The notes beneath the pieces were generated by a model, which saw nothing but the letters and a program-made list of their open reading frames with translations, had not been told where the DNA came from and ran no database searches. A stretch of DNA of 64,000 bases from Corynebacterium jeikeium (GTDB lineage Bacteria; Actinomycetota; Actinomycetes; Mycobacteriales; Mycobacteriaceae), in the NCBI RefSeq assembly GCF_000738175.1, contig NZ_JFCH01000046.1, forward strand, positions 1 through 64,000. The letters are read 5' to 3'. Shown here in pieces: positions 36,865 to 57,834 of the stretch. The position numbers were made by a program, and so were the translations under genes. The first letter of the stretch is position 1, and each line of letters begins with the position of its first letter.

Positions 36865-36988
36865 AATGTCGTTAGATCGGGAATACGTCAACGCCGATCG
36901 CGCTCCACGGTTTTTCAAAACCTTTTGACCTGCGGTTTTAGATAAATGGAAATGGCTGTCATCAACGCATTCCCGTTCTAGCGACACG
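36865..36988 (+). repeat. Palindromic element, copy 1 (core on plus strand)
   Basis: The left arm is AATGTCGTTAGATCGGGAAT and the right arm read on the other strand is CGTGTCGCTAGAACGGGAAT; about 20 of 23 bases from TGTCG inward match. TGACCTGC lies at 36926-36933, at the exact centre. The arm sequence differs from the other copies except for TGTCG, but the palindromic design, size (124 bp) and central core are the same. Confidence 0.8.
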
Positions 36989-37152
36989 TGATCATCTGAG
37001 GTGGCTCAAGATCTCCGCTATGGCGACATTTGGGCGCCTAAAACCGCTCCGAGGCCTCGATCCGGTGGCATTTGGCTATGGCCTGTTTTTATTTGGGTAC
37101 GTGGAGTGGTTGAGAATGCTCAACTCGGCGGTATTGGGTGGTGCCGGAAGGG

Positions 37153-37282
37153 TTAAATGTCGGAAAAGTTGCAAAACAGAAAATCGGCTAGATGACAGCC
37201 TGCGACAAAAACGCTCTGACCTGCATGTTTGCATTAGTGAAAATTGTCTGCAATAACGTTGTGCAACTTTTCCGACACTTTG
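37153..37282 (+). repeat. Palindromic element, copy 2 (core on plus strand)
   Basis: The left arm TAAATGTCGGAAAAGTTGCA and the inverted right arm AAGTGTCGGAAAAGTTGCA match over GTCGGAAAAGTTGCA. The core AACGCTCTGACCTGCATG is central (TGACCTGC at 37217-37224). CTGCAATAACGTT lies in the right half, as in copy 3. The length is 130 bp. Confidence 0.85.
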
Positions 37283-37405
37283 GCGGAAGCGGTGAATTTT
37301 GGAGTGTGCAGGCCCGGTGTTTTGCAACTTTTCCGACAATTAGGGGTCAACGGTGCAGTTCGGAGGTCTGCAGCCGCTGGCGTTCTGCACGCTTTCCGAC
37401 ATTTA
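37261..37405 (+). repeat. Direct repeats of about 62 bp derived from the right arm of copy 2
   Basis: TGCAACTTTTCCGACA occurs at 37262 and 37323, and the related TGCACGCTTTCCGACA at 37386. The sequences between also align (CGGTG-A-TT-GGAG...GCAG). This makes about 2.3 tandem units ending at the phosphatase gene. Confidence 0.7.
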
Positions 37406-37422
37406 AGCGGCGGAAAGGCTCA

Positions 37423-37938
37423 CTAACGCCCCAGCTGCTCCCGGACATACTCCACAATGCCCGGTACGGCGGCCTCAATCTGCTGCCCGACCTCGGTAAA
37501 GTCCGAGCGGTGGCCGTAGTAAGGGTCGGCGACTTCGGCACCGGCGGGGGAGTTGGCGTCAAAGGTACGGAACAAGCGAATGCGCTCCGGGGCGACACCC
37601 GCGTTGCGCAACCCGCGCACGTGCCCGTCGTCCATGGCCAGGAAAAGGTCGGCGCCCAAATGCTCAGGTCCGAGCTGTGCCGCGCGGTGCGCCGTGCCGT
37701 CGTAGCCCAATGACGCCAACTCATCCACCGCCCGACCATCAGCGCCGTCGCCGATGTGCCAGCCGCCGAGTCCGCAGGAATTCAGGGTCACGGGCGCGTC
37801 GGCGGCGGAGGATTCGGCAGCATCAGCGGCCGGGGAGTGACTGGTGGCGATGCCGGCTTCCTCGAGGCCGGCGCGCAGAATCACCTCGCCCATCGGGGAG
37901 CGGCAGATGTTGCCCGTGCATACGACAGTGATGTGCAT
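37423..37938 (-). CDS. ptpA: Low-molecular-weight protein-tyrosine phosphatase
   Basis: A 171-residue phosphatase of the arsenate-reductase-like fold. The phosphate loop C7-T-G-N-I-C-R13-S is at the N-terminus (VVCTGNICRSPMG) and the general-acid Asp is in ADPYYG near residue 138. A 20-residue Ala/Ser-rich insertion follows the first helix. It lies next to SURF1 as ptpA does in mycobacteria, and is convergent with it. Such enzymes dephosphorylate tyrosine on bacterial or host proteins; the target here is unknown. Confidence 0.88.
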   Translation of the reverse strand: MHITVVCTGNICRSPMGEVILRAGLEEAGIATSHSPAADAAESSAADAPVTLNSCGLGGWHIGDGADGRAVDELASLGYDGTAHRAAQLGPEHLGADLFLAMDDGHVRGLRNAGVAPERIRLFRTFDANSPAGAEVADPYYGHRSDFTEVGQQIEAAVPGIVEYVREQLGR

Positions 37939-38060
37939 TTAATTCCTTTCAGTTCATTGAGGACTTGAGGTTCGGGGCTGCATTGCGTTGGCAGCGCCAC
38001 CCTGCTGGCGCGGCGCAGCCCCGGCAGTCCGGCAGCGCCCCTGGCATTGAGGCGCCCCGG

Positions 38061-38777
38061 CTAGCCCTCGTTGGCCCAGCGCTGCACCAGCGCGTCCAGC
38101 TCCTCCAGAGTGTCCACGCTGTAGGCGGCCTTGGCGTGCTCGTCTGCGGAACCGTAGCCCCAGCCGACCAGCACCGTGGGGATGCCGGACTGCGCGGCGC
38201 CCTCCACGTCGTGGATGCGGTCGCCGATTAGCAGCATCTTCGTCGGGTCGAGAGCCTGCAGGCCTTCCTCGGCGCTCATGTGAGCCAGGAATTCCCGCAC
38301 CTCGGGAGCCTCCTTCAGCTGCTCCAGCGCGTACTCAATCACGGCAGCCTTGGATCGGCGGGTGCCGTCCTCCTGTGCCGCGCCGAGTACCGCGAAGTAC
38401 TTCAGCATGTCGTGCTCGCGCAGGATCCGCTCCGCCGACACTTCGGACTTGGACGTTGCCGTGGACAGGATAATGCCCTCGCTGGACCACTTTTCCAGCA
38501 GGTCGCGCATGCCAGGGAACGGGGTGGCTTCCTTCCAGCGTCCGTTTTCCTGGTCCGAAAGGTATGTGTCAAAAACCTTCTGCAGCAGTTCGCCTTCCAG
38601 GCCAATGTCCTGCAGGGTCTCCACCATCGGCGGGCCGGGGATCTCGCGCACGCGCTCCTCGTCAGGCACCGGCACCCCGTGAGCCTCCAGGGCGTTCACG
38701 AAGCTGGCGCGGATGCCGGGGTAGCTATCCATCAGCGTTCCGTCTACGTCTACAAGCAGAATTGGTAAGTCTCGCAC
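38061..38777 (-). CDS. HAD-superfamily hydrolase, phosphoglycolate-phosphatase-like
   Basis: A 238-residue HAD phosphatase. Motif I is D10-V-D12-G-T (ILLVDVDGTLMDSYPG), motif II is the Thr/Ser in IILSTATSKS, and motif III/IV is the Lys region SKAAVIEYAL with LLIGDRIHDVEGA. The cap domain lies between motifs I and II. The closest well-known relatives are Gph-type phosphatases; the substrate cannot be fixed. It is in the same direction as ptpA and divergent from the NIF3 gene. Confidence 0.82.
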   Translation of the reverse strand: MRDLPILLVDVDGTLMDSYPGIRASFVNALEAHGVPVPDEERVREIPGPPMVETLQDIGLEGELLQKVFDTYLSDQENGRWKEATPFPGMRDLLEKWSSEGIILSTATSKSEVSAERILREHDMLKYFAVLGAAQEDGTRRSKAAVIEYALEQLKEAPEVREFLAHMSAEEGLQALDPTKMLLIGDRIHDVEGAAQSGIPTVLVGWGYGSADEHAKAAYSVDTLEELDALVQRWANEG

Positions 38778-38900
38778 TCCTCCAGTGTGTCAGATCTGGC
38801 TAGGCTGGGTGGAGCATGCAGCCAGCCGAGCGAGCAGCCGGGCTGGCAGCACCTTGCAGCCGCAAAGCTAGCAGCACATAGCAGTACCCCAGGAGAATCC

Positions 38901-40118
38901 GTGCCCGAGCCATCCACCCACCCTGCCGCACCCGCCGCGAACCCCGAGACCGCCGCACCCGCCGCGAACCCCGAGACCGCCGCACCCGCCGCGAATCAAA
39001 CCACCGTCGCCGACGTCGCCGCCGCCTTGGAGGCCGCCTACCCGCCTCACCTCGCGGAATCCTGGGACGCGGTGGGCCTGATCTGTGGCGACCCCGCCGA
39101 GCCCGCCGACAAGGTCGCCTTCGCCTTAGACTGCACCGACGCCGTCGTGGATGCCGCCATCGCCCAGGGCGCGCAGATGCTCGTGGTCCATCATCCGCTG
39201 CTGCTCCGCGGCGTCACCGCCGTGCCCGCCAACTCCCCGAAGGGCCGCATCGTCCACAAGCTGATCCGCAACGCCATCGCCCTATTCGCAGCACACACAA
39301 ACGCCGATTCCGCCCGCCCCGGCGTGAACGATCGCCTGGCCGAGCTCCTCGGCGTCACCCCGGGCGCACCCTTGCGGCCGATCCCTTCTAGCACCGACAA
39401 GTGGGGCTTCACCGTTCCTCTTAATGACGCCCCCACGGTGAAATCCGCCATCTTCTCCGCAGGCGGTGGCGCGCAGGGTGACTATGAGCAGGCCTGCTTC
39501 GAGTTCTCCGTCACCGGCCAGTTCCTGCCCACGGAAGGCGCGAATCCGCACCTCGGCGCGGTCGGGGAGGTAGAGACGGTCGAGGAGGTCCGCATTGAGT
39601 TCGTAGCCCCCGCCGCGAAGCGGGAAGCTATCCGCGCGGCCCTCATCAAGGCCCACCCCTATGAGGAGCCGGCCTACGACTGCGTGGAAACCTCCCTGCC
39701 CACGCCCGCCGACCAGCAGCTGGGCATCGGGCGCGTCGGCGAGCTGGATACCCCAATGACCCTGCGGGAGTTTACCGCCCGCGTGGCCGAGCGCCTGCCC
39801 GCTACCGAATGGGGCGTGCGCGCAGCCGGAGACCCGGATGCCATGATCCGCACCGTCGCCGTCGCTAGCGGCGCCGGAGATAGCTTCCTCGGCCAGGTCG
39901 CAAAAATGGACGTGGACTGCTTCGTCACCTCCGACCTGCGCCACCACCCGGTGGATGAGCACCTGCGCATGGGCGGGTGCCCGGTGATCGATACCGCCCA
40001 CTGGGCCAGCGAGTTTCCGTGGTGTTTCCAGGCGGAAGGCGTCATTAAGAAGGCAACGAAGGCACAGACCACAGTGATCGACGTGCGCACCGACCCGTGG
40101 ACCGTGCACGAAAAATAG
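38901..40118 (+). CDS. NIF3/DUF34-family metal-binding protein with inserted PII-like domain
   Basis: A 405-residue member of the NIF3 (YbgI, GTP cyclohydrolase 1 type 2) family. Metal ligands are in MLVVHHPLLLRG, FAAHTNADSA and TSDLRHHPVDEH near the C-terminus. A central insertion (VRIEFVAPAAKREAIRAAL then IKAHPYEEPAYD) is the PII-like domain of the long form. GTG 38901 is chosen because AGGAGAATCC precedes it. The N-terminus has 2.6 copies of a 9-residue unit, AAPAANPET, encoded by a 27-bp repeat. The biochemical function of the family is unsettled. The gene heads an operon with a zinc-ribbon protein and RNase H. Confidence 0.85.
   Translation: MPEPSTHPAAPAANPETAAPAANPETAAPAANQTTVADVAAALEAAYPPHLAESWDAVGLICGDPAEPADKVAFALDCTDAVVDAAIAQGAQMLVVHHPLLLRGVTAVPANSPKGRIVHKLIRNAIALFAAHTNADSARPGVNDRLAELLGVTPGAPLRPIPSSTDKWGFTVPLNDAPTVKSAIFSAGGGAQGDYEQACFEFSVTGQFLPTEGANPHLGAVGEVETVEEVRIEFVAPAAKREAIRAALIKAHPYEEPAYDCVETSLPTPADQQLGIGRVGELDTPMTLREFTARVAERLPATEWGVRAAGDPDAMIRTVAVASGAGDSFLGQVAKMDVDCFVTSDLRHHPVDEHLRMGGCPVIDTAHWASEFPWCFQAEGVIKKATKAQTTVIDVRTDPWTVHEK
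38925..38995 (+). repeat. 27-bp tandem repeat inside a coding region, 2.6 copies
   Basis: Two identical units at 38925-38951 and 38952-38978 begin GCCGCACCCGCCGCGAACC, followed by 17 bases of a third. The unit length is a multiple of three, so copy number can change without breaking the frame of the NIF3-family gene. Confidence 0.9.
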
Positions 40119-40131
40119 GAGGACAACTGCG

Positions 40132-40878
40132 ATGCGCTGGACCACCGACGACCGAAAGAACCTGGCAGACCTAGCGCGCGACCAGGAGGAGCTGGACATC
40201 GCTCAAGCGCGGCTGGACTCGCTGCCGGAGCAGGCGAAGCTGGAGGAGCTGCAGGCTCAGAAGCGCGAGGAACGCCGCCAGCAGGTGCTGAACAACGCGC
40301 AGGTCAGGAGCGACCAGGCCTCCCTGATGCGCCTGCGCCAGGACGTGGCGAAGCTCAAGGAGCGCGAGCGGGCGAACGTGGCGGGGCTGAACTCGCAGAC
40401 CGACCCGGAGCGGCGGCGCGACCTGAAGCACGACCTGCACAGCACCCGTGACCGGCTGCGGGATCTGGAGGGTCGACTGGAACGCTCCGTGAAGGTGCAG
40501 TCGATGTTCAGCGGGGCCAATTCCGCCGCCGACGAGGCCGACGACCAGACGCATGCGCAGATCGACGAGGACATCGCCGCCGCGCAGACCGACCTGGACC
40601 GGGCGACCAACGCCCTGGAGGCCGACATTTCCGCCATCAAGGCCCGGTTGACCCAGCGGCGGACGGCACTGGAAGACACGAACGCGGAGCTGCTGCAGGC
40701 CTACGATCAGCAACTCGCCGAGCACGGGGTGGGGGCCGCGCCGTTGAAGGGGCGGACTTGCCAGGCGTGCTTCATGGAGTTAGACCCACTGTCCTTGAAG
40801 GAGATCGACAAGCTGGCAGCAGACGGCAGCGGGGAAGTGCCACGGTGCCCTGAATGTAATGTCCTGCTGCTGCGATAG
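40132..40878 (+). CDS. Coiled-coil protein with C-terminal C4 zinc ribbon
   Basis: A 248-residue protein. A long charged coiled coil (about 10-200, for example EELQAQKREERRQQVLNNAQ) is followed by a zinc ribbon with C-x2-C pairs (TCQACFMEL and PRCPECNVL). This combination is conserved in actinobacteria between NIF3 and the RNase H fusion, and is thought to bind nucleic acid. AGGAGG lies before the ATG. Confidence 0.85.
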   Translation: MRWTTDDRKNLADLARDQEELDIAQARLDSLPEQAKLEELQAQKREERRQQVLNNAQVRSDQASLMRLRQDVAKLKERERANVAGLNSQTDPERRRDLKHDLHSTRDRLRDLEGRLERSVKVQSMFSGANSAADEADDQTHAQIDEDIAAAQTDLDRATNALEADISAIKARLTQRRTALEDTNAELLQAYDQQLAEHGVGAAPLKGRTCQACFMELDPLSLKEIDKLAADGSGEVPRCPECNVLLLR

Positions 40879-40911
40879 AGTGACCTGAAGACGACAGAAC
40901 GAGGGTGATGA

Positions 40912-42276
40912 ATGATGCGCTTAGACGTGGAATGCGACGGAGGATCCCGCGGTAACCCGGGCATCGCCGGTTGCGGCAGTTCGGTCCTGGAGGGTGATCA
41001 GGAAGTAGCCGCACGCTGGGAGTTCATTGCCAAGGCCACGAATAATGTGGCGGAGTACCAGGGGCTCATCAACGCCTTGGAGTTGGCCATCGAGGTGGCG
41101 AAAATCCGCGGGATCGCCGCCGCGGACCTGGAGATCCAGGTACGCATGGATTCCAAGCTCGTCGTCGAGCAGATGAGCGGCCGCTGGAAAATCAAGCACC
41201 CCGACATGAAGCCCCTGGCCGCGCGGGTCAAGGAGCTCGAGGCGACTCTTGCCGCCGTCACTTACAACTGGGTGCCGCGCGCGCAGAATAAGCGCGCCGA
41301 CGAGCTGGCCAATCGCGCCATGGATGATGGGATTGGGGGGCGCTGGTTTGATGACGCCCTCTCGTTCCAACCCGCCGCCGACTCAGTCGAGGCCGGCGAG
41401 GATGCTGCACTGGCTCCTGCAGGGGCTTCAGGCGCTGCGGGCAATGAAAGCAAGGGCGCGGATGCCACCGGCGCGGCGGCCGTGACCGACGCCGCGAGCG
41501 CGCCGGAATGGCACCCCGGCGGGAAGCCGACCCGCCTGTGGGTGCTGCGGCACGGGCAGACGGAGATGAGCGTGCAGAAGCAGTTCTCTGGGCTCTCCGA
41601 CCCGGAGCTAACCTCCCATGGGCGTGAGCAGGCCCGCCGGGCCGCGGCCTACGTGGCCGGGCAGCTGGCAGGCGGCGCGGGTGCTATCTACAGCTCCCCG
41701 CTGAAACGCACCCGCCAGACCGCGGAGGCCGTGGCCGAGGCGCTGGCTGCGGCCCCCGCGGAGGCCGCAGCGGTCGCCGGTTCCAGTAACGCTGGTGGCG
41801 CTGGCACCGCCAAGCCTCGAGTCCATGTGACCGAAGCCCTGATCGAGATGGACTTCGGAGACTGGGAAGGCCGCACCTTCGCCGAGGTCATGGAAGAATT
41901 CCCCCTTGAGCACGACGCCTGCTTCTGGGACAGTTCCGCAGCCCCTAGCGGAGGCGAAAGCCCCGATGACGTGCTCGCCCGCGTGCGCCCCTTCCTTCGC
42001 GACGTCGCCCGCAACCACCCCGGCGAGGATGTCGTGCTGGTCAGCCACGTGACACCCATTAAGTCCATCCTGCGCCACGCTTTTTGTGCCAGCGGCGCGT
42101 TGTACCGCACGCTGCACCTGGACCTGGCGGGCTTGAGCGTCATCGAAATTTTCCCGGATGGTTCAGAAGGTTCCGGGGGAGAAGTGGGCGTCAACAATAA
42201 GGGCAGCAACAAAGACAGCGCCGTGGTGCGAAGGGTCAACGATACGCACTTCCTCGATGGAGAAACCGTGCGCTAG
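40912..42276 (+). CDS. Bifunctional RNase H1 / histidine phosphatase
   Basis: A 454-residue fusion. Residues 1-140 are a type I RNase H that cuts RNA in RNA-DNA hybrids; the acidic residues are in DVECDGGSRGNPG, NNVAEYQGL, VRMDSKLVVEQM and KRADELANRA. A 60-residue Ala-rich linker follows. Residues about 205-440 are a phosphoglycerate-mutase-like phosphatase with the catalytic His in LWVLRHGQTEMS, SSPLKRTRQTAEA and VSHVTPI. The fusion is known in mycobacteria (RNase H plus CobC-like acid phosphatase). Two adjacent ATG codons start the frame. Confidence 0.92.
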   Translation: MMRLDVECDGGSRGNPGIAGCGSSVLEGDQEVAARWEFIAKATNNVAEYQGLINALELAIEVAKIRGIAAADLEIQVRMDSKLVVEQMSGRWKIKHPDMKPLAARVKELEATLAAVTYNWVPRAQNKRADELANRAMDDGIGGRWFDDALSFQPAADSVEAGEDAALAPAGASGAAGNESKGADATGAAAVTDAASAPEWHPGGKPTRLWVLRHGQTEMSVQKQFSGLSDPELTSHGREQARRAAAYVAGQLAGGAGAIYSSPLKRTRQTAEAVAEALAAAPAEAAAVAGSSNAGGAGTAKPRVHVTEALIEMDFGDWEGRTFAEVMEEFPLEHDACFWDSSAAPSGGESPDDVLARVRPFLRDVARNHPGEDVVLVSHVTPIKSILRHAFCASGALYRTLHLDLAGLSVIEIFPDGSEGSGGEVGVNNKGSNKDSAVVRRVNDTHFLDGETVR

Positions 42277-42287
42277 AGTTAAACCTT

Positions 42288-42752
42288 GTCGAGACGGCCG
42301 GGCGATCGCGGCGCGCGGAACCACCCTGCATACAGGGCAGGCCGGGCGCGGAGGAAAGTCCGGACTCCACAGGGCAACGGTGGTTGCTAACAGCAACCCG
42401 GGGCGACCTGCGGGAACAGTGCCACAGAAAACAAACCGCCCGCCACGCGCGGGTAAGGGTGAAAAGGTGCGGTAAGAGCGCACCAGCACCTCAGGCGACT
42501 GGGGTGGCTAGGTAAACCCCACCGGGAGCAAGGTCAAGGTGCCCGCACGCGCGCCATCCCAGATGGTGCACAAGCGTGCGGCGTAGCTCTAGGGCTGCCC
42601 GCCCAACGATGAGCAGGTAGGCCGCTTGAAGCCACCAGCAATGGTGGGCTCAGATGGATGATCGCCTCGTCCTACGCCTTCTTCGCGTGCCCACGCGGTG
42701 CTGCGGAGTGGGCGGGGGATAGGACAGAATCCGGCTCACAGGCTGTCTCGAC
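42288..42752 (+). ncRNA. rnpB: RNase P RNA, bacterial type A
   Basis: The catalytic RNA that matures tRNA 5' ends. The conserved blocks are present in order: GAGGAAAGTCCGGACTCCAC near 42351, CAGGGCAACGGTGG, GGTAAGGGTGAAAAGGTGCG near 42450, GGTAAACCCCACC, AGATGGATGATCGCC and GACAGAATCCGGCTCACAGG near the end. The terminal helix is formed by GTCGAGAC (42288-42295) and GTCTCGAC (42745-42752), which sets the ends. Position after the RNase H gene agrees with other corynebacteria. Confidence 0.96.
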
Positions 42753-42813
42753 TTAAAAATTTTTTGGGGCTTAGGCGTGGCCGGGGTGGCGCGGTTGTGT
42801 CACTCTTGGAGGC

Positions 42814-44361: not shown

Positions 44362-44399
44362 GCAGGGGGCCGTCCGGTGCGTGTGGTACACATGAGCCT

Positions 44400-44588
44400 A
44401 TGAGCGAAAATGATGCGCAGAAGTGGTACTACGACACGAAGACCGGCCAGGTGAGCCAGGGTAAGGACAGCGCGTGGGATAGCCGCATGGGGCCCTACGA
44501 CACGCGCGAGGAGGCTGAGGCTGCCATTGAGACCGCGCAGCAGCGCACCAAGGAAGCCGAGGAATACGACGCGGAAGATGACGACTAA
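44400..44588 (+). CDS. Small SPOR-like acidic protein
   Basis: A 62-residue protein (KWYYDTKTGQVSQGKDSAWD then RMGPYDTREEAEAAIETA). The WYYDTKTGxVxxG plus GPY-x-TREEAE pattern is found in short actinobacterial proteins annotated as SPOR-domain or methionine-aminopeptidase-like. It ends in an acidic tail, and its stop overlaps the start of the next gene. No enzyme motif is present. Confidence 0.8.
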   Translation: MSENDAQKWYYDTKTGQVSQGKDSAWDSRMGPYDTREEAEAAIETAQQRTKEAEEYDAEDDD

Positions 44589-45453: not shown

Positions 45454-45552
45454 CCCCAGCTGCTCAATACTGTTGTACTGTCCTAAGTGTTGATAAAGCA
45501 CACCGTTCAAGGTGAGCCGCTGTGTGCAGTGAGTAAAGAGGGGGGAAAGCTG

Positions 45553-46251: not shown

Positions 46252-46624
46252 CGGTGACAGGCGTGGGGCTGGCGTGGGTGTGGTGACTGGCGGTTGCTGG
46301 CGTGCTAAATGTCGTTAAAGTGGTAAAACGTTATTGGTAGCGATTGTCGACACTGCAAAGATGCAGGTCAGGGCAATTTCGCTAGCTGCAAAATTTTTTT
46401 CGGGAAGACGAATTACCACTTTTGCGACATTTAGTGGTTTGAGAGGGGGTGCCAGCCCGCCGGAATGGTGCCAGAGTGACCTGTGGGGCTGGCGTGACGC
46501 GGCGGAAGGTGGGTGTGGGTAGGTGGCAGGGGCTGGGAGGTTGGGTGTGTGACCAGTGGGGTTAGAGTGACCTGTGGGGCTGGTGTGGCGAGGTGGGGGG
46601 GACAGGCCCTGCAGGCCAGCCGGG
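46252..46624. other. 373-bp intergenic region with a palindromic element and short direct repeats
   Basis: This region lies between the two-TM orphan and the convergent panB gene. It contains palindromic element copy 3 (46306-46433). To its right AGAGTGACCTGTGGGGCTGG occurs twice, near 46474 and 46564, in a GT-rich background. No gene is convincing. Confidence 0.65.
46306..46433 (-). repeat. Palindromic element, copy 3 (core on minus strand)
   Basis: The arms are TAAATGTCGTTAAAGTGGTA (left) and TAAATGTCGCAAAAGTGGTA (right, inverted): 18 of 20 match. The core on the minus strand is GCCCTGACCTGCATCTTTGC (TGACCTGC at 46363-46370), central in 128 bp. ACCAATAACGTT occurs between core and arm, as in copy 2. 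Confidence 0.85.
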
Positions 46625-47485: not shown

Positions 47486-47596
47486 TCTAGGTGACGCCCT
47501 CAACCCCAACCGCTTAACCGCCGACTAGCGCAAACGGGGGCGTGGCCTAGCGCAAACAGGGGCGCAGTCGGGCGGGAAACTTCTACAATGGGGGAT

Positions 47597-48934: not shown

Positions 48935-49029
48935 TCGCCTTATCTGCGGCTTCCTCTCCCACGCTTCCATCCCACTCACACTTCCATCCCTCCCACTACT
49001 TCCTTGAGTTCTAGGAGCACCTTCACCCC

Positions 49030-52000
49030 ATGACCCGCCCTCGCAGTTCGCGTTCCTCCGTGCCGACCGCCCGCACCCTGGGCCTGACTCACCCCAAGGC
49101 GCAGGAGGACCTTGAACGGCTCGGCTGGGTGGATGCCCAGCACGCGGAGCAGATGTGGATTCTCGCTGCGACGGGCGATCCGGATCTGGCGCTGAACAAC
49201 CTGATCCGCCTGGTAGAGGCGCTCGACCGCGCGGACGGTGCGGACTCCGCAGGCACCAGCGCCGAGTTGCTGGCGCGCATCAACGAATCCCGCCAGTTCG
49301 CCGTCCGCCTGCTGAGTCTGTTCGGCGCGTCGTCCATGCTGGGCGACCACATCGTTGCCAACCCGGCAGAGTGGAAACAACTCGAAGACGGGATGCCCTC
49401 GGCCGAGGAAATGATGGAGCTCATGCTCGGCAGCGTCTCGGCAACCCCCATCGAAGGCTCGGGCGAGCGGGTGTTTCGGGCGGGCGTCACAGGCTCAGAG
49501 GCCGACGACGCAATGCGCCGAACCTACCGCACCATTCTCGCGCGCATCGCCGCCGTCGACGTCGCGGGCACCTTCGTGCAGCGTGGCGAGGAATCGGCCG
49601 AGCCTGTCGAGTTCGAGCTGGTCTCACGCCGACTCTCCGACGCGGCGGACGCCGCGCTGACCGCCGCCCTGGCCGTCGCGTGCGCGCAGGTGTACGAACC
49701 CGATGAACAGCCCGCCCGGCTCGCAGTGCTGGCCATGGGAAAGTGTGGCGCGCAGGAGTTGAACTATATCTCCGACGTGGACGTCATCTTCGTCGCCGAA
49801 CCCGCCGACCCGAAGGCCACCCGCTGGGCAGGCGAGTTCATCAACATCGGCAGCCGCGTGTTCTTCGAGGTAGATGCCGCCCTGCGCCCCGAAGGCAAAA
49901 GCGGTGCCCTGGTGCGCACCCTCGAATCGCACGTGAAGTACTACAACCGCTGGGCTGAAACCTGGGAGTTCCAGGCACAGCTAAAGGCGCGCCCCATGAC
50001 CGGCGACCTGGAGCTAGGCCAGGAGTACGTCGACGCGCTGGCATCGAAGGTGTGGTCAGCCGCCGAGCGAGAGGACTTCGTGCAGGACGTGCAGGCCATG
50101 CGCCGCCGGGTGATCGAGAACATCCCGGACGACATCCGCACCCGCGAGCTAAAACTGGGCCCCGGGGGACTGCGCGACATCGAGTTCGCCGTCCAGCTGC
50201 TGCAGATGGTGCACGGGCGCACTGACGAATCGCTGCGCACACGCTCCACCGTCGCCTCGCTGCGCGCCCTGGCCAAGGGCGGCTACATCGGCCGCGCGGA
50301 CTGCCAGAACCTGCAGGAAAACTACGCCTTCATGCGCCTTTTGGAGCACCGCCTGCAGCTGCAGCGCCTGAAGCGCACGCACACCCTCCCGCCGAAGGAG
50401 GACAAGGCTGCCCGCGTGTGGCTGGGGCGCACCTCCGGCTGCCGTCCCGAGGGCACGAGGAGCATGGACGAGCAGCTGGCGGCGGATGTTAAGCGCGTGA
50501 GCCTGGAGATCAGCCAGCTGCATTCGAAGCTGTTCTACCGCCCGCTGCTGTCGTCTGTGGCGGCGATGCAGGCCGATACGATCCGCCTGTCGCCGGAGGC
50601 CGCGAAGCGCCAGCTGGCCGCCCTGGGCTACGCCTACCCGGACCGCGCCTTCGAGCACCTAAGCGCCCTGGCCGCGGGCAGCAGCCGCAAGGCCAAGCTG
50701 CAGGCCATCATCCTGCCCACGCTGCTGGAATGGCTGGGGGAGACGGTCGACCCGGACGCTGGCCTGTTGAACTACCGCAAGCTCTCCGAGGCCGCGCACG
50801 ACTACAGCTGGTTCCTGCGCCTGCTGCGCGACGAGAACATCGTGGGCAAGCGCCTCATGCACATCCTGGGCACCTCGCCCTATGTCGCGGAGCTGTTCTT
50901 AAACTCCGTGGACTCGGTGAAAATCCTGTCCGACGGCGCCATCGGCCCGAAGTTCCTGGAGCGCGAGCCGCAGGTCGTCACCCACTCCCTGGTCGCAGCT
51001 GCCGGCCGCCACCGCCACCCGGATAAGGCCATCGCCGTCGCCCGTTCGCTGCGCCGCGCGGAGCTGGCCCGTATCGCCGCCGCCGACCTGCTGGGCTTCA
51101 TGGACGTGGAGCAGGTCTGCGTTTCCCTGTCCTGGGTGTGGGACGCAGTGCTCGAGGCCGCCCTGCGCGCCGAGATTCGCTTCTGGGAAGACGAGAATGT
51201 GGCCAACGCGCCGGCGCGCATCACCGTTATCGGCATGGGACGGTTGGGCGGTGCGGAGCTCGGGTATGGTTCTGACGCCGACGTGATGTTTGTCGCCCAG
51301 CCTGTCGAAGGCGCGGATGAATCAGAAGCGCTGAAGTGGGCCACCAGTATTTGCGACTCGGTGCGAACGCGCCTGGGCAGGCCCAGCCAGGATCCGCCCC
51401 TGGACGTGGATATTGACTTGCGCCCGGAGGGGCGCAACGGCCCGGTCGTGCGCACGCTGGATTCCTACCGCCGCTACTACAAGGAGTGGGGCGAGACGTG
51501 GGAGATGCAGGCCTTGCTGCGCGCCACGTGGATCGCGGGTGACAAGGATCTGGGCATCGAGTTCCTGCGCATGATCGACGACTTCCGCTACCCGCCGGGA
51601 GGGGTAGATGACAAGGTCGTCCAGGAAGTTCGCCGCATGAAGGCGCGTGTGGATTCCGAGCGTCTGCCGCGTGGCGCAGACCGCAAGACGCACACCAAGC
51701 TGGGCCGTGGCGCCCTGACGGACGTGGAGTGGACCGTGCAGCTGCTCACGATGCAGCACGGGGACGATGCGGATAACCTGCGCAACACCTCTACCCTGGA
51801 GACCCTGCGCGAGCTCGCCAGCGGCGAGTATATCGCCGAGTCCGATGCGGAGATTCTGCGGGATGCCTGGGTTACCGCCACCATCGCACGCAATGCGATT
51901 GTGCTGGTCAAGGGCAAGCGGAAGGATCAGCTGCCCAGCCACGGCGACCAGCTGCGCCACGTCGCGGCGGCTGCCCACTGGCCGCCGGAGCAGGCCCAGG

Positions 52001-52098
52001 AGTTCCTGGACGACTACCTGAAGAAGACCCGCAAGGCCCACCGAGTGGTGGACCGGGTGTTCTGGGGCGAGGACGTCGGCATCGACTACGGCGGCTAG
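49030..52098 (+). CDS. glnE: Glutamine synthetase adenylyltransferase/deadenylylase
   Basis: A 1022-residue two-headed enzyme. The N-terminal nucleotidyltransferase (deadenylylase) has AMGKCGAQELNYISDVDVIF near residue 237, and the C-terminal one (adenylyltransferase) has GMGRLGGAELGYGSDADVMF near 737. Both keep the GxGxxGxxEL-x3-SDxD metal motif. Helical regulatory segments lie between. It tunes glutamine synthetase I to nitrogen status; the target GlnA1 is not in the window. The stop overlaps the end of the convergent sortase-like gene by four bases. Confidence 0.95.
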   Translation: MTRPRSSRSSVPTARTLGLTHPKAQEDLERLGWVDAQHAEQMWILAATGDPDLALNNLIRLVEALDRADGADSAGTSAELLARINESRQFAVRLLSLFGASSMLGDHIVANPAEWKQLEDGMPSAEEMMELMLGSVSATPIEGSGERVFRAGVTGSEADDAMRRTYRTILARIAAVDVAGTFVQRGEESAEPVEFELVSRRLSDAADAALTAALAVACAQVYEPDEQPARLAVLAMGKCGAQELNYISDVDVIFVAEPADPKATRWAGEFINIGSRVFFEVDAALRPEGKSGALVRTLESHVKYYNRWAETWEFQAQLKARPMTGDLELGQEYVDALASKVWSAAEREDFVQDVQAMRRRVIENIPDDIRTRELKLGPGGLRDIEFAVQLLQMVHGRTDESLRTRSTVASLRALAKGGYIGRADCQNLQENYAFMRLLEHRLQLQRLKRTHTLPPKEDKAARVWLGRTSGCRPEGTRSMDEQLAADVKRVSLEISQLHSKLFYRPLLSSVAAMQADTIRLSPEAAKRQLAALGYAYPDRAFEHLSALAAGSSRKAKLQAIILPTLLEWLGETVDPDAGLLNYRKLSEAAHDYSWFLRLLRDENIVGKRLMHILGTSPYVAELFLNSVDSVKILSDGAIGPKFLEREPQVVTHSLVAAAGRHRHPDKAIAVARSLRRAELARIAAADLLGFMDVEQVCVSLSWVWDAVLEAALRAEIRFWEDENVANAPARITVIGMGRLGGAELGYGSDADVMFVAQPVEGADESEALKWATSICDSVRTRLGRPSQDPPLDVDIDLRPEGRNGPVVRTLDSYRRYYKEWGETWEMQALLRATWIAGDKDLGIEFLRMIDDFRYPPGGVDDKVVQEVRRMKARVDSERLPRGADRKTHTKLGRGALTDVEWTVQLLTMQHGDDADNLRNTSTLETLRELASGEYIAESDAEILRDAWVTATIARNAIVLVKGKRKDQLPSHGDQLRHVAAAAHWPPEQAQEFLDDYLKKTRKAHRVVDRVFWGEDVGIDYGG

Positions 52099-52886
52099 AC
52101 CAGTTCGCCCTCGACGATGACGTTGTAGCCGAGGTCGTTGCTGCCGGAGACCGAGCAGGCGATCAGCACGATCCGCCCCGGACGCTTGTCGTCCATAATG
52201 TCAGGGTCCACGATGGCCTCGTGCTTATCCACCAGCCAGTTGCGGGTGACCTTCCAGGTCCGCTGGTGGTTCGCGCCGTCGCGCATCTTGATTTTTGCCC
52301 CGTTCAGCACGTCGGAGGAGTAGCGCTTCACCGGCTTGCCATCCGTGCCGTTCACGTTCTGCGGCGGGGCGTTCAGGTTCACATCCGCCGTCACCGCCTC
52401 GCTTAAGGGGTTAAACACCAGCGGAGCCGCACCCCACGCATGCCCCAGGACGTACATCGTGCCCTTCTCCGCATCCTTCGGCGATACACCCCAGCCTTCG
52501 ACCCAGCGCACCATGGTGTTCTGCGGTCCTGCCGGGTTCAGCGGCAGAGCGTAGGGCATCGAGGCAAACGTTGCACCCTGCACCGGGGCGGGGCCGTCCA
52601 TCGTGAAAGACCCGGTTCCCTCGACCGGCCCCGGAACTACCGAGGGATCATCCTCGTCCTCCCGCTTGCCGTCTTTCTTCGGCTTCTTCTTCTCGCTGGG
52701 TTTCGCGGAGCTCGATGTGGCAGAGCTGGAAGAGCCCTCGCTGGAGTTGGTGGTGTTGGAGGCCGAGGGGGCGTCCTCACCAGAAAAACCCAAGATGGCC
52801 CAGATAGCCAGAGCGATAATTACCAGCAGTGCCACAACGGTGGCCAGAACACGGCGGCGATTAGCGAAGGGGCGGGCAAAGCTCAT
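52095..52886 (-). CDS. Sortase-fold membrane protein (class E/F-like)
   Basis: A 263-residue protein. An N-terminal TM helix (about 13-33) is followed by a Ser/Lys/Glu-rich linker and a sortase-like beta barrel. The presumed catalytic His is in YVLGHAWG and Cys in IVLIACSVSG. The Arg usually found two strands later is not evident: the last strand reads DLGYNVIVEGELV. It may therefore be a degenerate or atypical sortase. The sorting-signal substrate is unknown and none is seen nearby. Confidence 0.65.
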   Translation of the reverse strand: MSFARPFANRRRVLATVVALLVIIALAIWAILGFSGEDAPSASNTTNSSEGSSSSATSSSAKPSEKKKPKKDGKREDEDDPSVVPGPVEGTGSFTMDGPAPVQGATFASMPYALPLNPAGPQNTMVRWVEGWGVSPKDAEKGTMYVLGHAWGAAPLVFNPLSEAVTADVNLNAPPQNVNGTDGKPVKRYSSDVLNGAKIKMRDGANHQRTWKVTRNWLVDKHEAIVDPDIMDDKRPGRIVLIACSVSGSNDLGYNVIVEGELV

Positions 52887-52929
52887 GGTGAATAAGTCTA
52901 TCCATAACCCACGGAGTAGCGTGAGGTGA

Positions 52930-54225
52930 GTGACAGCTCAGGATAAAGACAAACTCAGCCCCCGTGCGCTCATCGTGTGGGGAGCCGGGGTGCTGTGCTA
53001 CACCCTGGCGGTAACCGGGCGCACTTCCTTCGGCGTGGCCAGCGTGGATGCCATCGACCGCTTCCACATCAATGCCGCTCAGCTGGCGGTCTTCACTGCA
53101 CTCCAGCTAGCGGTGTACGCCTTCGCGCAGATTCCGGTGGGCCTTTTGGTGGATCGCTTCGGCCCGCGCAAGCTGATGGTGGCCGGCGCCTTCGTCATGG
53201 CAGTGGGGCAGGTCACGCTGGCCTTCACCACGAGCTACCCGGTGGCGATCTTCGCCCGCATGCTGATCGGCGCGGGCGACGCGACGGCCTTCCTGTCTGT
53301 AATGCGCCTGATCCCCGCGTGGATTCCGCTGCGCCACGCGCCGCTGCTCGGCCAGCTGACGGGCGCGGTGGGGCAGTTCGGCCAATTCCTATCCGCCGTG
53401 CCTTTCCTGAGCCTGCTGCACGCGACCAGCTGGCAGACCGGCTTCGTGAGCCTCGGTGCGGTCGGTGTGTTGCTGGCGCTGGCCGCGGGCGTGCTGGTGA
53501 AGGACTCGCCGGAGCCGGAGGCAAATGCCAGCGCCGCCGAGCCCGCCGAGCCCACCGAGCCCGGCAAGCCCACCGAAGCTGAACGCCTACCCGTCAAGAA
53601 GATCCTGGCCAACGTGCTGACCAACCGGGTCTGCTGGCACGGCTTCTTCGTCCACTGGACGGGCCTAGGCGCGCTGGTGGTGTTCACCCTGCTGTGGGGC
53701 CTGCCGATCATGACACTCGGCCTGGGTCTGCCCGCCGACCAGGCCGGCCTGGCGCTCTCGCTGGGCACGCTGGCCTCCGTGGCGGTCGGCCCGATCGTGG
53801 GGCTGCTGTCCGCCCGCTTCTACAACCGTCGCATGCAGATCGTCATGATCTTCTCCATCACCGGTTGGTTGGGCTGGCTGTGGTTCTTTACTTCCGCGCC
53901 TACGGGCGTGCTGTGGGCAGCCTGCCTGATGAACATCATCATGGGCTTCACCGGCCCCGTTGCGAACTTGGGTTTCGACTCCGTGCGCGAGAAGGTGGAC
54001 CGCCGCTTCGTCGCCACCGGCACCGGCCTGGCGAATATGGGCGGCTGGATCGCGGGAATGATTGGCGCCCAGGCTGTCGGCGTGCTGCTGAACCTGCGCG
54101 CCTCGGACGGCAATTACGACTGGGCGGACTTCGGCGTGGCCTGGATCGCGGTGGCTACCGTATGGGCCTGCGGTTTTAGCGGAATGTGGCTCACGCGCGA
54201 TCGCAACGTGCGCCGTTATTCTTAG
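52930..54225 (+). CDS. Major facilitator superfamily transporter
   Basis: A 431-residue membrane protein with about 12 transmembrane segments and a hydrophilic Ala/Glu/Pro-rich loop between the halves (about residues 195-220). The MFS loop motif is VDRFGPRKLMVAGAF after TM2. The later part includes LLSARFYNRRMQIVMIF. The substrate is not evident. The GTG start follows GCGTGAGGTGA. It is divergent from the sortase gene, with about 40 bases between starts, and convergent with the GT-C gene, with 4 bases between. Confidence 0.82.
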   Translation: MTAQDKDKLSPRALIVWGAGVLCYTLAVTGRTSFGVASVDAIDRFHINAAQLAVFTALQLAVYAFAQIPVGLLVDRFGPRKLMVAGAFVMAVGQVTLAFTTSYPVAIFARMLIGAGDATAFLSVMRLIPAWIPLRHAPLLGQLTGAVGQFGQFLSAVPFLSLLHATSWQTGFVSLGAVGVLLALAAGVLVKDSPEPEANASAAEPAEPTEPGKPTEAERLPVKKILANVLTNRVCWHGFFVHWTGLGALVVFTLLWGLPIMTLGLGLPADQAGLALSLGTLASVAVGPIVGLLSARFYNRRMQIVMIFSITGWLGWLWFFTSAPTGVLWAACLMNIIMGFTGPVANLGFDSVREKVDRRFVATGTGLANMGGWIAGMIGAQAVGVLLNLRASDGNYDWADFGVAWIAVATVWACGFSGMWLTRDRNVRRYS

Positions 54226-54229
54226 GCCC

Positions 54230-55549
54230 TTATCCTCTGGCTGTTTCCCTAAGAGGTTCTTTCTTCGTGACGCCCTCAGTCTCCTGCTTCTTTGCGGCTC
54301 GCGACTTTACCCCGGCGTGGATGGTGAGCTTGAGCGCCAGGTAAGTGATGTACACCATCAGGATGTTCCGTGCGGTGAGTACGAGGGCTGCGAACCAGTG
54401 GGGACCTTCGAACAGCAGATTGTAGGTGAAGGGGAATACAACCGTGGTCAGGGCGGCGGCGAGCACACTAAGCCACGTGAGTTTGCGCAGTGCGGCGGCC
54501 TCGCCATGCGTTCCAGCTCGCGCGGGGGCGCTGGCCCCGTCGCCAGGCTGCTTTGCCAACAGCACTGCCAGCGCCGGGCCGAACCATGCGACGTACTGCG
54601 GGGAGAACACCTTGTTGGAGACGATCAGCAGCAGCACCATAGTCAGGAAGAACAGGGCGGTACTGCGGGGAGACCAGGCGTCACAAAGAAAATGCCACAG
54701 AGCCCAGGCAAGGCCAAACAACATGGTGCACACCATCAGCACGCTGCTTGCCGTGACCAGCTGATCCACGCCCGGGCCGAAGATCTCGAAGCTTTTCGAC
54801 GGGGCTTTGGCGATGTGCCATTGGCCGGGGAAGATCGTGGCGGCGACAATCAGGGGAGTGGCGAGGATCGACTCGATCTGTAGGCCACGGACGTCCTGGT
54901 ACGTCAGCGGGGAGACCAGGCGATCCCAGCCGGAGGTCAGTACCGTGATCGCGCCGACGACCACGAGGGTGCCGCCGAACGTGATCAGACGAGCCCAGGT
55001 AGCGGAGCGATTCCACCGATCCACCAGCCCGGCGGCCAGTGCGGCGGGCCACAGCTTCGACATGGCCGCGAACCCCAGCAGGGCGGAGGCGAGCTTCGGG
55101 TGGGTAAACAATGCAGCCGCGGTGGCGGCGACCAGCAGACCGGGGATCAGATCCAGGCGGGAGTACACGATCGGTCCCGCGGCGGCGGTAAAGGCAGTCC
55201 AGAATAGTGCGGCGCGGTGGCTGCGATTCAACAGGTAGAAGAAGAATGCCGTGCTGCAGGCAATGAGAACCGCAGAGAACAGGGTGAGGAAAACATAGGC
55301 GTGATCCCCGCTCAGCTGGATGATCGCACGCACGGGCCACAGCCCAGCATCCGGATACTCGGATAGCGGCAGCGCGCCGTGGCTTGGATGCACAGGTTTG
55401 CCCAAGGAATTACGGAAGTAATACATGGGGTCGCCCTTGGCGAAGGGCCAGAAGATCAGGATTCCAACGATAACCACATTCGTCAGTGCCCAGGCTGCAA
55501 TGATTCTGGAACGGGGCCAGGGGGCGGATAGGTTGGTCTGATCACTCAC
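54230..55549 (-). CDS. GT-C fold membrane glycosyltransferase (GT87/DUF2029-like)
   Basis: A 439-residue integral membrane protein with about 10-12 helices. The first outer loop has the acidic/aromatic pattern PFAKGDPMYYFRNSL and SEYPDAGLWPVRAI, as in polyprenyl-phosphomannose-dependent mannosyltransferases of mycolate actinobacteria, and SRLDLIPGLLVAATAAALF follows. FSPQYVAWFGPALAVLL is a further family-like stretch. Addition of mannose to lipoglycans is likely by family, but the exact acceptor is unknown. GTG is the start; no clear ribosome binding site is seen. Confidence 0.75.
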   Translation of the reverse strand: MSDQTNLSAPWPRSRIIAAWALTNVVIVGILIFWPFAKGDPMYYFRNSLGKPVHPSHGALPLSEYPDAGLWPVRAIIQLSGDHAYVFLTLFSAVLIACSTAFFFYLLNRSHRAALFWTAFTAAAGPIVYSRLDLIPGLLVAATAAALFTHPKLASALLGFAAMSKLWPAALAAGLVDRWNRSATWARLITFGGTLVVVGAITVLTSGWDRLVSPLTYQDVRGLQIESILATPLIVAATIFPGQWHIAKAPSKSFEIFGPGVDQLVTASSVLMVCTMLFGLAWALWHFLCDAWSPRSTALFFLTMVLLLIVSNKVFSPQYVAWFGPALAVLLAKQPGDGASAPARAGTHGEAAALRKLTWLSVLAAALTTVVFPFTYNLLFEGPHWFAALVLTARNILMVYITYLALKLTIHAGVKSRAAKKQETEGVTKKEPLRETARG

Positions 55550-55564
55550 GAAAGTGAACTGTAC

Positions 55565-56065
55565 CTAAAAGTCTTCAGCTTCCCTAGCAAGCGCACGGAC
55601 GGTCTGCTGGATTCCTTCTTGCAAGCTGGCCTCGAACTTTTCCTCCCCGCCGAGGACGACCGCGACCAGCGCGCGGGAAATAAAGGAGGTCTTGCCGCCG
55701 GGAGCCAGGCGCTTCTCGGTGAGGACAGTCTGAGTGCCGTCGGCGGTGGGGGCGAGCTCGAAGCGCCAGCGCGTGCCGTTCAGGGGGATCTTGAATTCGA
55801 AGACCTTCTCCGGCACGACCTCTGTGACGACCGCCCAAGTGGGCCACCAGAGGATGCCCTGACGGTTGAGATTGATGGTGACGGTGCCTGGGGCCGGGGC
55901 TGTGGCGTTGCTGCTTGCGCTGGAGCTGCTGCGACGCGGCAGCAGGATCATCTTCTTGCACTGCGGGCTGCGGTCACCCATCGCTGACAGGTCGGTAACC
56001 CGCTGCCAGACCCTGCTGGTGGGTGCGTTGACGGTGATGCTGGCGGAAATCTCCGGAGCTGCCAT
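55565..56065 (-). CDS. SRPBCC-family (START-like) protein
   Basis: A 166-residue soluble protein with the helix-grip pattern: EISASITVNAPTSRVWQRVT at the N-terminus, KVFEFKIPLNGTRWRFEL in the sheet and a long C-terminal helix (EEKFEASLQEGIQQTVRALA). Such folds bind hydrophobic ligands in a cavity; no ligand or enzyme role is evident. A Ser/Ala insertion near 45-60 is variable. It lies 15 bases upstream of the GT-C gene on the same strand. Confidence 0.8.
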   Translation of the reverse strand: MAAPEISASITVNAPTSRVWQRVTDLSAMGDRSPQCKKMILLPRRSSSSASSNATAPAPGTVTINLNRQGILWWPTWAVVTEVVPEKVFEFKIPLNGTRWRFELAPTADGTQTVLTEKRLAPGGKTSFISRALVAVVLGGEEKFEASLQEGIQQTVRALAREAEDF

Positions 56066-56153
56066 GGTTGTGGTGCCTTTCGTCAGTGGCTCGTCTTGCT
56101 AGCGGAAGTTTTGTCGCCGCAACTAGCGGTGGTTCCACACTACGTGCTGCAAG

Positions 56154-56441
56154 CTACGCATCCACCACAATCGAAGAATCCACATCGCCATGCCGGGAGC
56201 ACTCCGCCGTCCAACCCATCGGATTCACCTGCACCTTCATCCGGCGCCCGCACAGCGGGCAGAAACGCGGTGGCTCCAAACCCGCCAGCGCCCCGCGGCT
56301 CGCCTGCGCAAGCGCCCCGCGGCCTACGCGCAAGGTGTCGTCTGAAGTGTCGAGTGGCTGGCCCGTATGGGCGTCATATAAAGGGGTACCGCCCAAGACA
56401 AACAGGGCGGTGAGTTCGCTTAGAGGCATCGAGGACGTCAC
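56154..56441 (-). CDS. bsaP: Biotin synthase auxiliary protein BsaP
   Basis: A 95-residue protein whose C-terminal half has the cysteine pattern PRFC61-PLC64-GRRMKVQV...GWTAEC81-SRH84-GDVD. This is shared with the small protein next to bioB in mycobacteria (Rv1590), reported to be needed by actinobacterial BioB and to bind an iron-sulfur cluster. It starts with GTG seven bases after bioB. The first 35 residues are variable. Confidence 0.8.
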
Positions 56442-56448
56442 GGTGTGC

Positions 56449-57522
56449 CTACAGGGTCGCGTTCAGAGCCTTGATCGGCAGCTGCAGCTTGCCGAGCATA
56501 TCCACGTCGCGCTCGGCGGGGCGCCCTAGCGTGGTCAGGTAGTTGCCAACAATGACGGCGTTGATGCCTCCCAACAGACCCTTCTCCGCGCCCAGGTCGC
56601 CCAAGGTCAGCTCGCGGCCGCCTGCGAAACGTAGCAGCTGGCGGGGGAGAGCCAGGCGGAACGCACCGATGGTGCGCAGGGCATCGTTGACCGGCATGGG
56701 CTCAATGTCCGCGAAAGGAGTACCCGGACGGGGGTCGAAGAAGTTCAACGGAACCTCCGTGGGGTCGAGGTTCTGCAGGTCGATGGCGAACTCCGCGCGC
56801 TGCTCGACGGTCTCGCCCATGCCGACGATGCCGCCGCAGCAGACCTCCATGCCCGCGTCGCGGACCATCTCCAGGGTGGAGGTGCGCTCCTCCCAGGTGT
56901 GGGTGGTGACAACCTCCGGGAAGTAGCTCTTGCAGGTCTCCAGGTTGTGGTTGTAGCGGTTTACGCCGAGCTCCTTTAGGCGATCGACCTGCTCCTGGGT
57001 GAGGATGCCGATGGACGCGGCGATGTTGATGTCGACCTCCGCCTGGATGGCGGCGATGGCCTTCGCCATCTGGTTCATCAGGTCCTCGTCGGGGCCCTTC
57101 ACTGCGGCGACGATGCAGAACTCCGTGGCGCCGGTCTTCGCGGTCTGCTTTGCGGCCTCGATCAGTTGGGCGATGTCCAGCTGGATAGATCGGACCGGGG
57201 ACTCGAAAAGGCCCGACTGGGCGCAGAAGTGGCAGTCCTCGGGGCAGCCGCCGGTCTGCAGGGAAATAATGCCTTCCATCTCCACGGCATCGCCGCACCA
57301 CTTCAGGCGAACCTGGTGGGCCAGCTCCAGCAGCTCGTCCAGGTGCTCGTCGCCGAGCTGCAGAACCTGAAGGGTTTCCTCGTAGTTCAGGGGCTCGCCG
57401 TTTTCCAGCACCTTCGTGCGGGCGTGGTTCAGGATTTCTGGGGTTTCGGTGGCTTCGGTGGTTGCTGGGGTTTCGGTGGTTCCTGGGGTTGCGGTGGCTG
57501 GCTTCGGTTCAGTGGTAGTCAT
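56449..57522 (-). CDS. bioB: Biotin synthase
   Basis: A 357-residue radical-SAM enzyme that inserts sulfur into dethiobiotin. The SAM cluster motif is CPEDCHFC ([15 protein letters not shown]), and the auxiliary [2Fe-2S] site residues lie in [23 protein letters not shown] and [14 protein letters not shown]. The Thr/Ala/Pro-rich first 30 residues are a variable extension. ATG 57522 with GAGGAG upstream is preferred over an in-frame start at 57537. It is cotranscribed with bsaP. A BioQ-like site lies 75 bases upstream. Confidence 0.95.
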
Positions 57523-57597
57523 CGTCGGTCTCCTCAAAGCTGTCGTGAAACTTCTCGTGCGAGTGATGGTGGGCGTATCAGTCTTGAACGTTGGTCT

Positions 57598-57610
57598 TGA
57601 ACGCTGTTTA
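57598..57610 (-). promoter_or_regulatory. BioQ-like operator upstream of bioB
   Basis: TGAACGCTGTTTA fits the corynebacterial BioQ form TGAAC-N3-GTTAC except in the last half-site (GTTTA). TGAACGTTGG, 14 bases to the left, is a partial second half-site. Position before bioB supports repression by BioQ when biotin is sufficient. The bioQ gene is not in the window. Confidence 0.5.
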
Positions 57611-57721
57611 GTTTCACATGCTAACGCACTGAGATTGCGATGTGTGACATACCGGGGGCTAGGGAGTTTTGAGGGGGCGGGGCGTGTGCCATGCCAGGGC
57701 GGGAAGCCTGGCGTGAGGGGG

Positions 57722-57834
57722 AATGTCCCAAATTCCAGCTCTTAGGATATAACTATTTTGTTTACGCAGGTCAGCGCGTTGTCAATATTGGCTGCATACC
57801 TGCTACTTTCAATAACTCGACGATTTGGGACATC
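57722..57834 (-). repeat. Palindromic element, copy 4 (core on minus strand)
   Basis: AATGTCCCAAAT (57722-57733) and the inverted right arm ATGTCCCAAATC match over TGTCCCAAAT. The core on the minus strand is AACGCGCTGACCTGCGTAAA (TGACCTGC at 57766-57773), near the centre of 113 bp. The arm sequence differs from copies 1-3 after TGTC; the core is the same. Confidence 0.75.

Follow-up and report, generated by a model that had tools for sequence, protein, structure and literature searches.

The 64,000-nucleotide stretch of Corynebacterium jeikeium DNA analyzed here (contig NZ_JFCH01000046.1, hereafter the window) carries four copies of an intergenic element in which two inverted arms, running from TGTC to GACA, flank a shared centre, TGACCTGC. 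From the comparison of these copies with their relatives in the same genome and across the genus, we propose, at a probability of roughly 0.6, that the elements are inherited vertically and serve, at the ends of genes, as binding sites of critical spacing for a nucleoprotein complex that occupies several sites. Repeats of this small, dispersed kind are commonly interpreted as hairpins or as remnants of mobile DNA in decay. Here, a fixed length with a free spacer, conserved arms of distinct types, helical phase, concerted switching of both arms and loss in a close relative point to a working DNA-protein architecture distributed across the chromosome. The four copies had been reported by an earlier reading made from the letters of the window (the sequence-only reading); direct reading confirmed them where they had been placed, at 120, 120, 120 and 109 bp once each was trimmed to TGTC...GACA and given the strand of TGACCTGC.

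The copies had been taken for one family with a fixed centre, and this held genome-wide: the pattern TGTC-N35-65-TGACCTGC-N35-65-GACA was matched 37 times in the 2.42-Mb genome against once for a reversed-pattern control. The search that the sequence-only reading had suggested as a test thus found more copies, and the control standing for random background gave almost none. Eight of the 37 matches lacked matching arms; with these excluded, 29 real elements remained. A degenerate arm pattern used alone detected 83 arms, with 0 in its control. When cores were recognized by arm spacing, variants of the centre included, 43 were obtained in this genome (G000), which together with two variant copies of the shorter class B described below, window copy 4 among them, gives about 45; 42 cores, centre variants again counted, were obtained in a second genome, G054. 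In the window itself, TGACCTGC occurs 13 times (2.87 expected; maximum of 8 in 100 shuffles), a count that is weak evidence by itself as only four of the 13 occurrences fall in elements.

Across the genus, the element pattern was present in 59 of 121 genomes and reached at least 10 matches in four only (G079, 23; G000, 21; G054, 19; G076, 12), the rest having 0 to 4. The arm pattern of the main class, A, searched with 0 mismatches and therefore covering neither diverged nor class B ends, was found in 14 of 242 genomes of the genus, with nine control hits over all 242. Six genomes are carriers (G079, 82 arms; G054, 64; G168, 64; G000, 58; G076, 37; G207, 9) and the other 236 hold 0 to 2 class A arms, eight of them one or two. 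A scan with the spacing of 121-bp copies returned one copy in HMSC08A12 and six unrelated records. Two arm matches lying 40 bp apart in G106 were rejected as an element and attributed to a short palindrome of another kind, and the plasmid homologs of elements 1 and 2 were short pieces only (best E 0.03).

The anatomy of the element was established on 121 distinct core elements from five genomes, leaving out window copy 4 and the element L009 1501 on account of their variant arms. Class A accounts for 110 of them (106 of 120 bp and four of 121 bp) and class B for 11 (109-111 bp); a further seven class B elements were examined separately. Both classes have inverted arms of about 20 bp around a central TGACCWGS, with start-to-start distances of 102-103 bp in class A and 91-93 bp in class B, the right half of class B being shorter by about 11 bp, that is, by one helical turn. 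In class A, the left arm is followed by a spacer of about 30 nts without consensus and then by CTCTGACCWGC (positions 57-67), TTT (71-73), TG.AAA (81-86), CCAWTAAC (93-100) and the right arm. CAATAACGTT, which had been noticed as common to copies 2 and 3, belongs to the family-wide motif CCAWTAACG adjoining the right arm. The class A arm consensus is approximately TGTCG-N-W-A-R-A-N-Y-K-G-B-A-A, and the arms, judged by reading their sequences, are not themselves palindromes. Arm positions vary together as linked whole types: positions 7, 9, 12, 13 and 15 read TGCGG (type A1) in 112 of 220 arms, AATTC (A2) in 74 and TATGG (A3) in nine, and the two arms of an element share an identical five-position type in 89 of 110 cases, against 38% expected. 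At the three outermost bases, AAA or GAA predominates (left arm, 92/110; right arm, 90/110). The arms had been thought private to each copy, with structure kept rather than arm sequence. The first claim is incorrect and the second is not supported: copy 1 has the common A1 type, copy 2 the common A2 type and copy 3 an intermediate type, and arm sequences rank among the most conserved parts of the element.

Many elements are accompanied by additional arms beyond the core, in most cases at distances of 31, 41, 61-63, 72 or 82 bp, in phase with the helix. Defining an accessory arm as a same-orientation arm within 150 bp, we collected 38 distinct spacings (73 before orthologs were collapsed), which gave R=0.88 at a period of 10.36 bp; the 22 spacings between neighbouring elements gave R=0.67 at 10.48 bp. 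In both cases, 0 of 5000 jittered sets equalled the observed value. The accessory arms have no pairing partner, yet many retain a consensus, an example being TGTCGGAAAWGTTGCAST at a spacing of exactly 31 bp.

Conservation between orthologs follows this anatomy. Over 31 ortholog groups, differences per site were 0.017 and 0.029 at the fixed positions of the left and right arms, 0.052 in the centre and 0.152 in the spacer, so that the arms are 5-9 times better conserved than the spacer. Spacer columns 24-50 are 81% identical over 87 ortholog pairs and 29% identical between unrelated copies. The copies therefore diverged from one another long before these species did, while arms, centre and length persisted. 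In a set of 28 locus groups, which was built from loci chosen for holding elements and is not a census, 22 cover more than one genome, and an ortholog in G054 was found by a later search for three of the six single groups. The class B elements of G054 matched a G000 or window locus in 7/7 cases. At five sites, the class A arm type differs between related species. The clearest is L121, whose inner part is 0.70, 0.68 and 0.67 identical to those of L104, L083 and L035 (unrelated pairs: 95th percentile 0.60, 99th 0.68), the arms being only 0.40-0.47 identical; relative to L104 (arms 0.40 and 0.47), both arms have changed type around an inner part that is still homologous. L033 against L101 (inner identity 0.63) is a weaker case, and L084/L105 as well as L031 against L090/L126 (0.51-0.56) are indistinguishable from unrelated pairs. 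At the fifth site, L070/L110, the lengths differ.

The genome G207 is close to G000 (the panB product is 99% identical and the flanking DNA at locus 3 about 94%) and holds nine class A arms against 58. At the two window intergenes compared, which account for three copies, G207 shows ragged deletions: about 340 bp are missing around copy 3, and copies 1 and 2 are lost with one degenerate arm left nearby. Neither a duplication nor a clean excision was seen there, and the comparison of filled and empty sites proposed by the sequence-only reading thus gave no precise empty site in these two intergenes. Among six other G207 loci, one has lost its right arm (L158), one is 119 bp long with altered arms (L159), one has an altered centre (L160) and three retain good arm pairs (L155, L156, L157).

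These data bear on the most serious alternative, an ancient miniature inverted-repeat transposable element (MITE) whose arms would be the terminal inverted repeats of a DDE transposase with TGT...ACA ends, the transposase being lost or located elsewhere. Tn7, Tn402 and IS21 have TGT...ACA ends with several transposase binding sites per end, and the family recalls such elements by its TGTC...GACA terminal inverted repeats, its 120-bp size, its intergenic dispersal, its uneven copy number and its multiple same-orientation arms per end. Nevertheless, a target duplication of at least 3 bp at TGTC was seen in none of the 110 class A elements, and shifting the ends by 1-8 bp gave at most 5/110 for 3 bp, near background. 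The presence of 22 of the 28 locus groups in several genomes, the lack of any distant inverted arm pair outside core elements in G000 and G054, the fact that beyond the six carriers no genome of the 242 exceeds two class A arms (by the exact pattern, which leaves class B ends uncovered) and the ragged deletions in place of precise empty sites at the two intergenes compared all speak against it; moreover, neutral copies would not retain their arms while losing all spacer similarity at a fixed length. We consider a MITE unlikely as an account of the present elements. The family may nonetheless descend from an old non-autonomous transposon and now behave as conserved chromosomal sites. A search for PF09299 (TniA/TnsB type) found no match in 12 genomes, but carries no weight, its control having been equally silent.

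An IS30-family transposase was examined as a possible partner and rejected: its copies are near-identical in G000 and G054, and no match was found in the carriers G076, G079 and G168. Only one of the six IS30 copies examined sits at an arm, and it was taken to have inserted into an element or next to one. At the start of a G000 contig (C17; L075 1-1475), an IS30-family transposase gene (HTH_38 and rve) abuts by its end the remains of an A2 arm.

A second alternative is that the arms pair as a long stem, either in an RNA (a 3' untranslated region or a small RNA) or as a DNA cruciform. The arms are complementary and covary (pairs with double changes numbered 12 against 10.4 in shuffles, in the 61 of 105 class A elements hand-picked to thin close copies), and many copies lie between convergent genes. 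However, positions 6, 11, 18 and 19 are often unpaired (11, 20, 21 and 37 times, respectively, in the same 61 elements). Positions 6 and 11 are free in both arms and need no pairing. Over arm positions 1-20 of 110 elements, the mismatches were 79 A/C, 66 G/T, 49 A/A and 41 T/T; as A/C mismatches are as frequent as G/T, wobble pairs are not preferred. The conservation of unpaired accessory arms also goes against a stem, and helical phasing would be unexpected for an RNA. The alignment fold predicted no inner pairs, and a conserved inner hairpin of class A was not supported (best helix among all scanned, z 2.4, not significant; stem score z 0.77). At the gathering threshold, Rfam gave no family on the window copies, and one terminator-like sequence (0.9 expected) and 0 promoters were found in the region of copies 1 and 2. 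Combined, the linkage of types, the free positions and mismatches, the unpaired accessory arms and the helical spacing lead us to regard the arms as double-stranded binding sites; a hairpin or cruciform is very unlikely. The covariation of the arms that the sequence-only reading had put forward as a test is present, but it is that of typed binding sites. Among the options that it had listed (hairpin RNA, protein-bound cruciform, small mobile element), binding by protein is the part retained here and a mobile element could still be the origin; the premise of a kept structure is not supported.

An arrangement of inverted arms, a centre between them and accessory sites in phase would also suit a site-specific recombinase or resolvase; this is highly improbable, as about 45 copies in both orientations should rearrange the chromosome and the four window loci are in the same order in G054. 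Poorest of all is the case for a REPIN or BIME family kept by a RAYT transposase, which would account for paired, inverted, intergenic and vertically persistent units: Y1_Tnp (PF01797) was found in 0 of nine genomes, including G000, G054, G076 and G079 (control positive in 5/14), and by reading the arms are not palindromic and include no tagged REP unit.

The position of the elements relative to genes was determined with a simple codon-usage gene caller of our own. Of 136 placements, orthologs and duplicates included, 61 were between convergent genes, 45 between tandem genes, four between divergent genes and 26 unresolved; none was inside a called gene. In the window, copies 1 to 3 lie between convergent genes, as had been noted, and copy 4 lies between two minus-strand open reading frames (ORFs), upstream of one whose translation reads as bioB-like. 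The complete chromosome of G054 begins with ORFs that read as dnaA-dnaN-recF, and its GC skew changes sense near 1.15 Mb. Of its 32 loci recognized by the exact arm pattern, 24 fall in the origin half (p=0.007), or 19 of 26 after neighbours were merged (p=0.03). No loci are present between 856 and 1422 kb (largest gap alone, p 0.046).

We propose that one DNA-binding protein from a small paralogous family, with one member per arm type, would occupy both arms of an element, and that the accessory arms, where present, would be bound by the same protein on one helix face. A second factor would bind at the centre, the intervening DNA being bent or looped. The resulting complex would have a boundary job, namely insulating neighbouring operons, blocking read-through or organizing the nucleoid; such a role is likely given the location of the elements at the ends of operons, with 61 of the 110 resolved placements convergent and only four divergent. 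More tentatively, and doubtful as a whole, the family might form a clade-specific chromosome-organizing or operon-insulating system of about 45 multi-site complexes per genome with paralogous readers, in which both arms switch together, which is thin around the terminus and which is being dismantled in one species. Should the protein be identified, this would amount to a new type of chromosomal site system for Corynebacterium; the pair G000/G207 is a natural comparison for finding its gene.

Several observations weigh against the proposal of spacing-critical binding sites. Firstly, no binding protein or trans-acting gene was found, and no regulator gene was noted beside the elements, the flanking genes looked at reading as housekeeping by eye, without a family search. 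The boundary function is drawn from position alone, and the origin bias is modest and was noticed post hoc. Secondly, the uneven copy number (nine arms in G207, one in G069) also fits an ageing mobile family. Thirdly, phasing depends on the definition of an accessory arm given above, spacings of 84, 85 and 110 bp are out of phase, and the 62-bp spacing occurs in 11 locus groups, where tandem duplication could spread one spacing. Among 48 non-core arms of G000 and G054, for which wrong core assignments were resolved by hand, 32 face a core, and the others fit poorly (10 are outward, solitary or truncated, four are weak matches and two belong to variant class B cores). Finally, pairing cells in the 61 hand-picked class A elements reach 88.8% against 77.5% in shuffles (0/500 reach this value), so that a stem is possible, and small structure signals were obtained for the class A left spacer (minimum free energy z -2.0), the right block (stem score z 2.4) and a dyad of the class B left spacer (z 3.05, five representatives).

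Among known systems, one close likeness is to RIB/RIP (BIME-1) of Escherichia coli, in which two inverted REPs flank an IHF site. The elements likewise are about 100 bp long and intergenic, with inverted arms that would bind protein on either side of a central protein site; unlike RIB/RIP, their arms are not palindromic REPs and come in several co-varying types, in helical phase with accessory arms, and a search of nine genomes detected no RAYT. Looping operators and iteron arrays, such as those of GalR, LacI and plasmid Rep, resemble the elements in having at least two sites, spaced by whole helical turns, about a centre; the elements differ from both by their roughly 45 chromosomal copies at gene ends and by the absence of a promoter-like site in the region of copies 1 and 2. 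By analogy, the element may work like BIME-1/RIB or like looping operators. Correia/NEMIS, ERIC and RUP, small repeats of about 105-155 bp, resemble the elements in that they end in inverted repeats, are numerous and often lie between genes (PMC2229807). Target duplications are listed for Correia, ERIC and RUP in Table 1 of that source; the elements show none, and their inside is unalignable between loci at a fixed length. The GTAG- and CGTC-tagged REPs are 20-40 bp palindromes with unpaired tags, the CGTC families having no known transposase; they too are dispersed repeats, at times dimers, whereas each arm of the elements is a non-palindromic site of about 20 bp (PMC3733652). The string "Corynebacter" is absent from the accessible text of that paper. 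PMC5217627 scanned C. jeikeium K411 for spaced motifs and, as far as its accessible text goes, mentions the species solely in a CRISPR-related pair table; PMC2267715 lists C. diphtheriae and, in its accessible portion, does not mention C. jeikeium. In the open-access literature, to which the search was directed (subscription papers and supplements being outside it), no description of the element was found and none of six 15-base arm strings occurs.

Table. Core elements and arms in the window
Feature	Position	Strand	Description
Core element 1	36867..36986	+	Class A, arm type A1, exactly 120 bp; centre TGACCTGC at 36926-36933
Left arm of element 1	36867..36887	+	TGTCGTTAGATCGGGAATACG
Right arm of element 1	36966..36986	-	Inverted, A1 type
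Probable decayed accessory arm	37011..37028	-	42 bp outside element 1; read by eye
Core element 2	37158..37277	+	Class A, arm type A2, 120 bp; centre TGACCTGC at 37217-37224
Accessory A2 arm	37321..37338	-	61 bp beyond the right arm of element 2, same orientation; repeat D5
Second accessory arm, degenerate	37384..37401	-	A further 63 bp out; by eye and repeat D5
Core element 3	46310..46429	-	Class A, intermediate arm type, 120 bp; centre at 46363-46370
Core element 4	57724..57832	-	Class B variant, 109 bp; centre at 57766-57773

Element 1 has same-site orthologs in G054, G079, G076 and G168, and at the G168 locus (L148) an intact accessory arm stands at the identical distance of 42 bp (arm ends at 1185 for the core and 1227). 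The orthologs of element 3 are L089, L118, L125 and L143; it is deleted in G207. Element 4 has a right half 11 bp shorter than that of class A and arms that are complementary over the outer 10 bp or so only. Its variant class B arm is common to one other G000 element (L009 1501), and the class B arms of its orthologs in G054 and G079 (L133 and L218) are of the canonical form. A solitary arm, TGTCCCAAATCTTCGAGT, recurs in G000 (C17:13871) and G054 (C1:2423648, 2428898, 2434393 and 2489297), in most cases a few hundred bp or less from a class B element, and could represent another variant class resembling copy 4. In some class B elements (L072, L067, L002, L216 and L217), the left spacer holds a perfect or near-perfect dyad TGAC....GTCA. 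At L021 1501-1622 (G000, C29), the centre GAAAACGCTCTGACCTGCA is intact and proper arms are absent, so that this is probably a decayed element. At L098 8929-9566 in G054, three tandem units of 228 bp each comprise a full element and its right accessory arm, near genes reading like galactan-type glycosyltransferases. Elsewhere in the window, the Rfam matches were an RNase P RNA (class A) at 42290-42754 and three tRNAs.

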